Shown here: positions 50,670 through 53,255 of the stretch, one piece after another | How the letters are laid out: the number at the start of each line of letters is the position of its first letter | Numbering within the stretch: position 1 is the stretch's first letter | Assembly: GCA_021768085.1 (NCBI GenBank) | Contig: JAETOJ010000018.1 | Location: 1 to 53,385 of the forward strand | Length of the DNA: 53,385 bases | Source: Bacillota bacterium | Lineage (GTDB): Bacteria > Bacillota > Clostridia > Oscillospirales > Oscillospiraceae | Reading direction: 5' to 3' | Notes under the pieces: model-generated | Database searches by the model: none | What the model saw: the letters and a program-made list of their open reading frames with translations, nothing else | What the model was told of the DNA's origin: nothing | Position numbers and translations under genes: made by a program

Positions 50670-51545
50670 TCAGAAAGAGGGGTGCACGTCGTCGCCCCGG
50701 GCCCGCTCCAGGTCGATCCGCTTTTTCCGATCCGACGCGGAGGCCAGCATGGCCCGCAGGCACTCCCTGTCCCCCGCCTCCATGGCCTCCCGGTACTGGC
50801 GCAGCCTGTCCTCCAGCGCCCGCACCACCCCCGTCAGCGCCGGGGCGTTGAGGGAGAACAGCTGCACCCACATGGCGGGATCCAGCGCCGCCACCCGGGT
50901 GCAGTCCCGGAAGGAGCCGCCCTCGAAGCCCTTGCAGGCGAACAGCTCGTCGTTGTCGCACACCGACAGGGCGATGACGTGCATCAGCTGGCTGGTGTAT
51001 GCGATCATGGCGTCGTGGCGCTCCGGGGTGGTCTCGATCACGTCCCCGAAGCGGCACCAGTCCGCCATGCGCCGCAGCAGGGCCAGGTGCTCCCCCGTGG
51101 CCCGGGGGCCGGGGGTGACAATGAAGTGGGTGTTGCGGAACAGCCCCGCCTCGGCGTTGCCGATGCCGGACACCTCCTTGCCCGCCATGGGATGGCAGCC
51201 GATGAAGTCCACGTCCGGCCGCAGGCACTCCGCCGCCGCCATGACGGCGGTTTTCACGCCGCACACGTCCGTCACCAGAGCACCGGTCTTGAATCGATCC
51301 CGGTGCTCCGCCAGAAAGCCAGTGATCCCCGCCGGATCCTGGCACAGCACCACCACGTCCGCCCCGGGCAGCTCCGGCTCTGGGTCGGGGGCCACCCGAT
51401 CCCCCGCCCCCTTAGTCGCCGCCTTCTCTCGGACGGCGGGGGACACGTCCGTGCCCACGATCTCAAAGTCCTCAAAGCCCCGCAGGGCCATGGCCAGGGA
51501 GCCGCCGATGAGGCCCAGGCCCACCACCAGAATCTTCTTCTCCAT
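50670..51545 (-). CDS. tyrA: Prephenate dehydrogenase
   Basis: A 291-residue NAD(P)-dependent enzyme that turns prephenate into 4-hydroxyphenylpyruvate in tyrosine synthesis. ATG 51545 starts MEKKILVVGLGLIGGSLAMA with the Rossmann GxGxxG (residues 9-14). GCHPMAGKEVSGIGNAEAGL holds the prephenate-binding and catalytic His. A second His lies in SQLMHVIALSV; the SFRDCTRVA segment is typical. No ACT or chorismate-mutase domain is attached. It is 16 bases downstream of aroF, whose leader responds to tyrosine. Confidence 0.93.
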   Translation of the reverse strand: MEKKILVVGLGLIGGSLAMALRGFEDFEIVGTDVSPAVREKAATKGAGDRVAPDPEPELPGADVVVLCQDPAGITGFLAEHRDRFKTGALVTDVCGVKTAVMAAAECLRPDVDFIGCHPMAGKEVSGIGNAEAGLFRNTHFIVTPGPRATGEHLALLRRMADWCRFGDVIETTPERHDAMIAYTSQLMHVIALSVCDNDELFACKGFEGGSFRDCTRVAALDPAMWVQLFSLNAPALTGVVRALEDRLRQYREAMEAGDRECLRAMLASASDRKKRIDLERARGDDVHPSF

Positions 51546-51561: not shown

Positions 51562-52578
51562 TCACAGATCCCGGCCCACACATTGGGCCAGCGGGCGCAG
51601 CTTGTCCATCATCTCGCCGAACTGCTCCGGCGTCACCGACTGGGCCCCGTCGCACAGGGCACAGGACGGGTTGTTGTGCACCTCGATGATGAGCCCGTCC
51701 GCCCCGGCGGCCACCGCCGCCATGGCCATCCGCTCCACCATCCACGCCTTGCCGCAGGCGTGGGAGGGATCCACCACCACCGGCAGGTGACTCTGCCGCT
51801 TCACCGCCAGCACCGCCGACAAATCCAGCGTGTTGCGGGTGTACGTCTCGAAAGTGCGGATACCCCGCTCGCACAGGATTACGTTGGGGTTGCCCCCCGC
51901 CATGATGTACTCCGCGCTCATGAGCCACTCCTCAATGGTGGAGGACAGGCCCCGCTTGAGCAGGATGGGCTTGTGGGTCTTGCCCACCTTCTTCAGCAGA
52001 TCGAAGTTCTGCATATTCCGGGCCCCGATCTGGATCACGTCCACCGCCTCCTCGAACAGGGGGAGCTGGTCGGCGCTCATCAGCTCGGACACAATGGGCA
52101 GACCGGTATTCTTCCGGGCCTCGTCCAGCAGGAGGACGCCCTCCACCCCCTTGCCCTGGAAGGCGTAGGGGGAGGTGCGGGGCTTATACGCGCCCCCCCG
52201 GAGGGCCGCCGCCCCGGACGCCTGGACGGACTGGGCCACCTCCAGGATCTGCTCCTCGCTCTCCACCGAGCAGGGCCCGGCAATCACCGCCAGCTTCTTC
52301 CCGCCGATGGACACGCCGCCGCCAATGTCGATCACCGAGTCGTCCGGGTGGTACTTGCGGTTGGCCTTTTTGTAGGGCTCGCTCACCCGCATCACCCGCT
52401 CCACCCCGGGGAGCTGGGCCAGCGTCTCCTGGTTCAGGGCGCCCGCGTCCCCCTCCGCGCCTAAAATGGTGGTCTCGGCGCCCTTGGACACCATCACCCG
52501 CACGCCCCCCGCCTCCATGGCGTGGACGGCCTGCTCCAGCTGTTCGGCGGTAAAGCCGTGCTTCATAATCACTACCAT
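51562..52578 (-). CDS. aroF: 3-deoxy-7-phosphoheptulonate synthase (DAHP synthase)
   Basis: A 338-residue first enzyme of aromatic synthesis, joining phosphoenolpyruvate and erythrose 4-phosphate. Residues 1-70 are an FeS-independent N-terminal regulatory (FLD-like) domain: GFTAEQLEQAVHAMEAGG and VERVMRVSEPYKKA. The barrel holds IAGPCSVESEEQI, ALRGGAYKPRTSPYAFQG, DVIQIGARNMQNFDLLKK, LLKRGLSSTIEEWL and VDPSHACGK, with Cys, His, Glu and Asp metal ligands. It belongs to the AroA-beta type used by Bacillus and Thermotoga. It heads the aroF-tyrA unit behind a Tyr-rich leader. Confidence 0.95.
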   Translation of the reverse strand: MVVIMKHGFTAEQLEQAVHAMEAGGVRVMVSKGAETTILGAEGDAGALNQETLAQLPGVERVMRVSEPYKKANRKYHPDDSVIDIGGGVSIGGKKLAVIAGPCSVESEEQILEVAQSVQASGAAALRGGAYKPRTSPYAFQGKGVEGVLLLDEARKNTGLPIVSELMSADQLPLFEEAVDVIQIGARNMQNFDLLKKVGKTHKPILLKRGLSSTIEEWLMSAEYIMAGGNPNVILCERGIRTFETYTRNTLDLSAVLAVKRQSHLPVVVDPSHACGKAWMVERMAMAAVAAGADGLIIEVHNNPSCALCDGAQSVTPEQFGEMMDKLRPLAQCVGRDL

Positions 52579-52611: not shown

Positions 52612-52641
52612 AAAAAGAAAGACGGCCGCCCCCGGCGGCCG
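52612..52641 (-). terminator. Attenuator terminator before aroF
   Basis: On the minus strand CGGCCGCC-ggg-GGCGGCCG is a perfect 8-bp stem, followed by TCTTTCTTTTT. It lies between the leader peptide and aroF. The upstream arm starts with GGCCGC, which can also pair with GCGGCC inside the leader-peptide region, so an antiterminator fold is possible. Confidence 0.85.
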
Positions 52642-52669
52642 CGCTCCACAAAAAAGACGCGCATCACCT

Positions 52670-52738
52670 TCAAGGGCATGACAAAAGGCCGCTATCGCAA
52701 TAGCGGTAATCGCCATACCCGTAGCTCCGGCAGTTCAT
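52670..52738 (-). CDS. Tyrosine-rich leader peptide of aroF-tyrA
   Basis: A 22-codon frame from ATG 52738, with GGAGGAG seven bases upstream, reads MNCRSYGYGDYRYCDSGLL and ends SCP. Tyr codons occur at positions 6, 8, 11 and 13, four in eight codons. The region 52689-52706 can form a hairpin CCGCTAT-tgcg-ATAGCGG that includes the last Tyr codons. The downstream GCGGCC can instead pair with the terminator's first arm. This is the classic leader-peptide attenuation layout: starving for Tyr-tRNA stalls ribosomes, frees the antiterminator and lets RNA polymerase pass into aroF-tyrA. Confidence 0.85.
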   Translation of the reverse strand: MNCRSYGYGDYRYCDSGLLSCP

Positions 52739-52768
52739 ACGCGGCTCCTCCTTTTGGTTGCTGCGGTT

Positions 52769-52797
52769 ACTCTAACACTTTTAAGCATGAAAGTCAA
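52769..52797 (-). promoter_or_regulatory. Promoter of the aroF-tyrA unit
   Basis: On the minus strand TTGACT (52792-52797), a 17-bp spacer and TAGAGT (52769-52774). Transcription would start about 25 bases before the leader-peptide ATG. Confidence 0.8.
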
Positions 52798-53060: not shown

Positions 53061-53255
53061 ATGGCATATTCCGATGCGCAACGGGAAGCAACTGCCAGAT
53101 ACAATAAAAAAGCCTATGACCGCATTGAAATCAAGGTGAAGAAGGGGCGCAAGGCACATATTGTAGCTTTTGCCGCCAAACAACATAAAAGCATGAATCA
53201 ATTCATCGTTGAACTCATCGACAAAGCCATGGCCGAACAAGAGGAGGACGCCTGA
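53061..53255 (+). CDS. Arc-like ribbon-helix-helix DNA-binding protein
   Basis: A 64-residue protein with AGGAGG seven bases before ATG 53061. Residues 1-20 (MAYSDAQREATARYNKKAYD) lead into the RHH: the strand RIEIKVKKGRKAHI and helices FAAKQHKSMNQFIVELIDKA. This resembles Arc/MetJ-type regulators and RHH antitoxins found on mobile elements. No toxin gene lies next to it in the window; one could follow after 53385. The three upstream sites suggest autoregulation. The gene is AT-rich compared with its neighbours, a sign of transfer. Confidence 0.85.
   Translation: MAYSDAQREATARYNKKAYDRIEIKVKKGRKAHIVAFAAKQHKSMNQFIVELIDKAMAEQEEDA

Follow-up and report, generated by a model that had tools for sequence, protein, structure and literature searches.

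Transcription of the aroF-tyrA operon studied here is most probably controlled by ribosome-mediated attenuation in response to charged tRNA-Tyr, a reading to which we give a probability of about 0.88. The operon and its leader lie on the minus strand of a 53,385-nucleotide stretch of DNA from a Bacillota genome, which as a whole is called the window below. On comparison of sequences, a promoter, a Tyr-rich leader ORF with its ribosome site, a hairpin, a terminator and the operon are kept together in most relatives. The original prediction, which proposed this type of Tyr-leader control for aroF-tyrA in a Firmicute, stands as the best reading, with both the Tyr codons and the stems conserved.

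The mechanism would operate as follows. With plentiful charged tRNA-Tyr, the ribosome would reach the stop codon of the leader ORF, the terminator would form, and transcription would end before aroF. With scarce charged tRNA-Tyr, the ribosome would stall in the Tyr cluster and cover the 5′ strand of the hairpin; the freed 3′ strand would then take the loop and 3′ arm of the terminator and the linker would take its 5′ arm, leading to read-through by the RNA polymerase. In RNA that is not translated, hairpin and terminator would be the default structures. Of all steps in this scheme, the geometric one is the least certain.

The aroF-tyrA leader in the window

The following elements were located in the window, listed in the order of transcription.

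52769..52797, minus strand: promoter TTGACT-17-TAGAGT, sigma-70-type, from a sequence scan
52747..52752, minus strand: Shine-Dalgarno sequence AGGAGG of the leader ORF, 8 nt 5′ of the ATG, from direct reading
52670..52738, minus strand: leader ORF MNCRSYGYGDYRYCDSGLLSCP, 22 codons, ATG at 52738 and TGA ending at 52670
52674..52720, minus strand: pause/anti-antiterminator hairpin, from folding, inner stem 52706-52689
52671..52692, minus strand: strand predicted by masked folding to be exposed on Tyr stalling, with the terminator loop and 3′ arm (52634-52622) as its predicted partner
52656..52668, minus strand: linker segment, predicted partner of the 5′ arm of the terminator (52647-52637) in antiterminated RNA
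52622..52647, minus strand: intrinsic terminator (5′ arm, loop and 3′ arm), GC-rich, core stem 52642-52622
52612..52621, minus strand: terminator U-tract CTTTCTTTTT, from a sequence scan
51562..52578, minus strand: aroF, DAHP synthase (DAHP_synth_1 with FXD domain, from a domain search), ATG at 52578
50670..51545, minus strand: tyrA, prephenate dehydrogenase (from a domain search), likely ATG 16 nt past the end of aroF

The promoter, ribosome site, 22-codon Tyr peptide, hairpin, terminator and aroF are thus all present on the minus strand in the order that had been claimed. To judge from its sequence, the putative leader ORF combines a ribosome site with codons for the end product of the operon, as expected of an attenuator. 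Its Tyr residues occupy codons 6, 8, 11 and 13; the last three fall within the 5′ half of the hairpin and codon 6 lies just upstream, while 27 nt separate the leader TGA from the terminator stem. The window sequence taken singly is weak evidence, because the whole naked leader folds with a z of only -1.43 against its shuffles (19 of 200 were equally stable) and 2 of the 764 short ORFs in the window have four Tyr in eight codons; it is sequence conservation that settles the reality of the putative leader. Beyond the aroF promoter, a small divergent ORF on the plus strand (53061-53252) gives a weak match to a TacA1-like antitoxin (20.7 bits, cut-off 21).

Distribution of the leader among relatives

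A sample of 400 genomes from the family of the window yielded 294 with an AroF match at E<=1e-110. Among the matches listed, two types of AroF can be told apart: AroF-I, 70-100% identical to the enzyme of the window and found in 72 genomes and 22 genera (a genus count that we made from the genus tags of the match table), and AroF-II, with about 60-66% identity to it. In a separate AroF homology search, two metagenome bins gave the closest matches (92 and 91% identity), and Flavonifractor, Intestinimonas and Papillibacter are among the named relatives, which match at 72-79%. The tyrA gene follows the AroF-I gene in 65 of 71 fetched loci, versus none of 38 AroF-II loci.

All 71 other AroF-I loci were read, and since one of them (L159) has only 80 nt upstream, 71 were evaluable with the window included. 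A Tyr leader is present in 62 of these, 60 found by script and two by eye (L131 and L161, the latter with N's and an in-frame stop), with 20 of the 22 AroF-I genera represented. The remaining nine evaluable loci have no Tyr leader: in seven of them (L102, L103, L106, L109, L111, L162 and L164) the gene follows the same promoter directly, and the other two (L151 and L154) have a different upstream region. Two observations concern individual lineages. In L131, the leader terminator and aroF are set apart by some 200 nt of additional sequence, seen by eye. Moreover, in genus g77 three of the four AroF-I loci (L103, L106 and L109) lack the leader and L117 retains it, and all four AroF-II loci fetched from this genus (L170, L175, L177 and L179) are also leaderless.

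The separate AroF homology search gave 18 AroF-I-like loci (L003-L020), 16 of them with the leader. Adding these brought the collection to 76 leaders, 66 of them distinct, with the two leaders found by eye outside the 66. Within the homology set, L018 has no leader and L016 was left out, its Tyr-rich ORF being 444 nt upstream and devoid of a ribosome site. L102 was also left out, as the ORF chosen by the script was spurious, and for L155 a Val codon further downstream was set manually as the start. The weak cases are L009 and L101, with only two Tyr, and L139, which is degenerate.

The Tyr codons themselves are conserved. When no motif was required, at least four Tyr in 13 codons were found in 55 of 72 upstream regions on the sense strand, versus 1 of 72 on the antisense strand, and in 2 of 38 AroF-II upstream regions. 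In the same motif-free count, Tyr had the highest mean best count of the 20 residues (4.29), followed by Leu (3.29). No residue is commoner in frame than Tyr in the 66 distinct leaders: it makes up 21%, versus 0.6% and 1.1% when the two other frames are read, the first figure being biased upward by a leader-finding script that needed at least two Tyr and favoured Tyr-rich ORFs. Both Tyr codons are used (198 TAT and 131 TAC), and the number of Tyr per peptide ranges from 2 to 8, with 4 to 6 in 56 of the 66 leaders and only 2 in two of them.

A terminator that responds to stalling in the folding model

A strong terminator lies between leader and aroF in 64 of the 66 distinct leaders, a score reached by 5 of 660 shuffled linkers. 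The other two, L149 and L163, have weak terminators and were kept out of the switch tests, which were therefore run on 64 leaders; L100 also has a weak terminator and gave no switch. The stalled ribosome was modelled by masking the RNA from its start to 13 nt beyond the first base of the codon in the A site, a footprint that is assumed. For the window, the probability of the terminator was 0.56 in naked RNA and 0.61 with a ribosome at the stop codon, and fell to 0.05 with a stall at Tyr 6 and to 0.00 at Tyr 8 and at Tyr 11. A stall at Tyr 13 changed it little (0.48).

The mean cost of losing the terminator in the 64 leaders was 11.8 kcal/mol for naked RNA, 12.8 with the ribosome at the stop codon, and 5.9 with a stall at the last-but-one Tyr. 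This drop of 6.8 kcal/mol compares with 3.5 when the exposed strand is shuffled (30 shuffles each; Wilcoxon p 2e-11, which, as for the other p-values, is optimistic since the leaders share ancestry). Leader by leader, 10% or fewer of the shuffles match the drop in 37 of 64, and at least 90% do so in 2 of 64. In the model, a ribosome held at the Tyr codons leaves free RNA able to compete with the terminator.

The position of the stall can be followed codon by codon in the 62 leaders left after L019 and L142, which have no anchor, were excluded. Stalls at -12 to -1 before the SG codon gave a mean cost of 6.0-6.6 kcal/mol, those at the SG codon 7.6-8.0, and those beyond it 11-13. Most Tyr codons fall between -11 and -2, counted from the SG codon, and they are nearly absent past it (Spearman -0.68, p 0.001); the low-cost plateau also spans codons where Tyr is rare (-12 and -1). 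At equilibrium, the terminator remains the favoured structure in most relatives even when the ribosome is stalled, and therefore kinetics must matter.

Geometry of the antiterminator

The strongest of the alternatives concerns how, rather than whether, the terminator would be defeated. In the classical trp-type geometry, the exposed hairpin strand would pair with the 5′ arm of the terminator, and the antiterminator originally proposed was of this kind, GCGGCC pairing with GGCCGC. The complementarity does exist in the window, and the same computational pipeline recovers such an arrangement elsewhere: the E. coli leaders thrL, trpL, pheL and leuL, which share with the Tyr leader the regulatory codons, a terminator and an alternative structure, differ from it by placing the upstream RNA mainly on the terminator 5′ arm when the stall is at the last-but-one regulatory codon. 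This comparison comprises four controls without shuffles, and with the stall at the last regulatory codon the preference for the 5′ arm is lost in pheL (linker to 3′ arm, 4.4) and leuL (no such pairing) and weaker in thrL. In the relatives of the window, however, pairing of the exposed strand with the 5′ arm does not hold as a general rule: over the 64 leaders this duplex is no better than in shuffles (mean z +0.11, with 2 of 64 at p<=0.05). Hence the proposed pairing can be read in the window and was rejected for the family, and we regard the trp-type geometry as a doubtful explanation, at roughly one chance in four.

The pairing in the relatives points instead to the other arm. The duplex of the exposed strand with the 3′ arm has a mean z of -0.54 (64 leaders), and when the terminator is forbidden the exposed strand makes at least 4 bp with the 3′ arm in 58 of 64 leaders versus 11 of 64 with the 5′ arm, and the linker pairs with the 5′ arm in 53 of 64. 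Counted in base pairs, the exposed strand contributes 10.0 to the loop and 3′ arm versus 6.8 in shuffles (above the shuffle mean in 59 of 64 leaders), and the linker contributes 8.0 to the 5′ arm versus 5.1 (above in 53 of 64). When the 3′ arm has yet to be made, the linker already pairs with 42% of the 5′ arm, versus 26% in shuffles (44 of 64 leaders). Because GC-rich RNA easily finds alternative pairings, we give about even odds to the model in which the linker keeps the 5′ arm paired and the exposed strand captures the loop and 3′ arm of the terminator. Such a predicted 3′-arm capture, should it prove real, would mean that a terminator can be defeated in a different manner.

A conserved promoter

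A second alternative places the main control at the promoter, with a repressor bound to a conserved palindrome and the attenuator in a secondary role. The promoter pattern was present in 82 of the 90 upstream regions searched, including the seven leaderless loci where it stands directly before the gene. Its spacer is unusually conserved (consensus AAAAAGTGCTAAAGT), and the promoter overlaps an imperfect palindrome, ACTTTAAC-N10-GCTAAAGT, which is kept in the seven loci without attenuator. A looser form of the pattern has one exact match in the window's own genome; with the 25-base consensus and up to three mismatches no site was found in this genome, the window's own included. The palindrome is a possible repressor site, to judge from its sequence. 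Main control by a repressor would nevertheless leave the conserved Tyr leader, hairpin and terminator unexplained, and a candidate regulator was not identified, so we consider this alternative unlikely, and less probable than the trp-type geometry.

Selection on the leader RNA

The leader could also be a gene in its own right, the short ORF encoding a functional small protein and the terminator merely trimming basal transcription. Its peptide is indeed recognisable in 20 genera, but its conserved parts track the RNA stems, the number of Tyr drifts from 2 to 8, and the ORF is missing from 9 of 71 loci. The stability of the leader RNA exceeds that of synonymous recodings (200 for each of the 66 distinct leaders), with a mean z of -2.0; z is below -1 in 47 of the 66 and below -2 in 37, and is -1 or above in 19. 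The point raised with the original prediction, that the stems might be conserved and the Tyr codons not, is answered by these relatives, where both are (55 of 72 versus 1 of 72 for the codons, and the mean z of -2.0 for the stems). In folds of 17 leaders, a hairpin overlaps the Tyr codons.

Eleven leaders were scored as having a stop shortly after the SG codon (one of them, L139, mis-anchored), and in nine of these the motif [TC]GCCC lies beyond the ORF, immediately 3′ of the stop. Because early stops drop the C-terminal residues and the RNA motif stays, we conclude from the sequences that this strand is kept as RNA, and that the peptide C-terminus is not what is conserved. A small-protein function is thus very improbable, and selection on the RNA fits the attenuator. 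Because the loops vary in length, the scores from consensus folding of a codon-anchored alignment were weak (-3.9 and -4.1, or -18.5 under RIBOSUM settings), and for this reason we relied on per-sequence folding with recoding and shuffle controls. A MAFFT alignment put several 5′ arms in the wrong place and was kept out of any covariance model.

T-boxes, TRAP and known attenuators

T-boxes and TRAP are the usual explanation for how Firmicutes control aromatic biosynthesis. The genome of the window has 11 T-box matches, two of them above the Rfam cut-off, and one precedes tyrS (L087:1501-1743; 86 bits, cut-off 93; E 1.6e-18). The aroF leader has no T-box (Rfam RF00230) match, and an Rfam search of it at E up to 10 returned only four sub-threshold matches to unrelated families. 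No TRAP (PF02081) match was found in the genome, with an assembly 90.6% complete and a positive B. subtilis control. An incidental ORF, with the operon under a T-box, a TRAP site or an unknown riboswitch, is the least credible explanation, for although T-boxes exist in the same genome and Tyr genes are cited as T-box controlled in the accessible part of PMC1262725, the Rfam and TRAP searches described above speak against it, and so does a Tyr enrichment confined to the sense strand and to one frame and shared by both synonymous codons. One genome would thus have a T-box on tyrS and yet run tyrosine synthesis, as it seems, by a leader peptide.

The original prediction had called ribosome-mediated attenuation unexpected here, in view of the T-box and TRAP systems. 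The contrast holds within this genome, with its tyrS T-box; as a general statement it has to be softened, for the mechanism is uncommon in Firmicutes and has precedents. From the portions available of the respective papers, ribosome-mediated attenuation is described for Listeria Rli60 (PMC5864092), with experimental support, and for the ilv-leu leader of S. aureus (PMC5794164), both of which concern branched-chain amino acids and another operon, and it is predicted for bacillar His leaders (PMC2965389). In Corynebacterium glutamicum, aroR-aroF is a Gram-positive case of leader-peptide attenuation of a DAHP synthase gene; it differs in belonging to an Actinobacterium, in its Phe-Tyr-Phe peptide and in responding to Phe limitation, with Tyr reportedly having no effect (PMC11802643, as far as its available text goes). 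For Acholeplasma aroF, a Phe uORF followed by a terminator has been proposed as a candidate attenuator (uORFC-13-1 motif), restricted to Acholeplasma and environmental sequences and carrying a Phe U-run, with no Tyr cluster described in the accessible part of PMC8632094.

Two further systems resemble the Tyr leader by description or idea, again from sources available in part. A gbs2033-type element before the aroFBC-tyrA operon of Enterococcus faecium is likewise an RNA element in front of a Firmicute aroF-tyrA operon, and is proposed to be a riboswitch (PMC4448216). The idea of Tyr-tRNA control of aroF was put forward with a proposed aroF-tyrA Tyr attenuator in E. coli and Shewanella, a proteobacterial hypothesis (PMC2659441, PMC8632094). 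Among the open PubMed Central papers listed, we found no Tyr leader attenuator in Clostridia. With the experimental support for Rli60 (PMC5864092), the class of attenuator is known in Firmicutes; the Tyr specificity, the clade, the geometry and the Phe-leader paralogue appear to be new.

A Phe-rich leader on the second aroF

The second aroF of the same genome (L002, reverse strand) is preceded by a Phe-rich leader, MALSHIYSLTVAFSWTRFTGFGFGGMARRAV, and by a terminator-like stretch seen by eye. Phe-rich leaders with a core like FGWARFMGAGYFGMGK were found in 28 of 38 AroF-II loci (L165-L202, taken from the matches listed) by a script that favours aromatic ORFs, and four more are visible. In these leaders Phe makes up 14.6% of residues in frame versus 3.0% and 6.9% off frame, which suggests, at the level of sequence, that the second DAHP synthase is controlled by Phe attenuation. 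A skipping-rope RNA (RF02924) lies near this gene, at L002:953-1048.

The DAHP synthases of E. coli are split into Tyr and Phe isozymes. The two DAHP synthases of the genome studied here are seemingly told apart by their Tyr and Phe leaders, and this pair, if true, would be an RNA-level counterpart of that split. Taking the geometry into account as well, we propose tentatively, with slightly less than an even chance, a clade-specific attenuator that works by 3′-arm capture on two DAHP synthase paralogues, with Tyr for aroF-tyrA and Phe for the second aroF.

Aromatic leaders may extend well beyond this family, as a layer of control for which the 18 loci scanned gave no Rfam entry. Within L021-L082, short ORFs rich in aromatic residues stand before aroF in groups that we take to be many Clostridia, Negativicutes, a Synergistaceae and a Treponema record. 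This range, which comes from the homology search, includes 61 further aroF loci whose upstream sequence reaches 300 nt or more; in 38 of them a short ORF on the sense strand holds eight or more Phe, Tyr or Trp in 16 codons, and in none of the 61 does one on the antisense strand. These aromatic-rich ORFs, mostly in Clostridia, suggest a broad layer of control.
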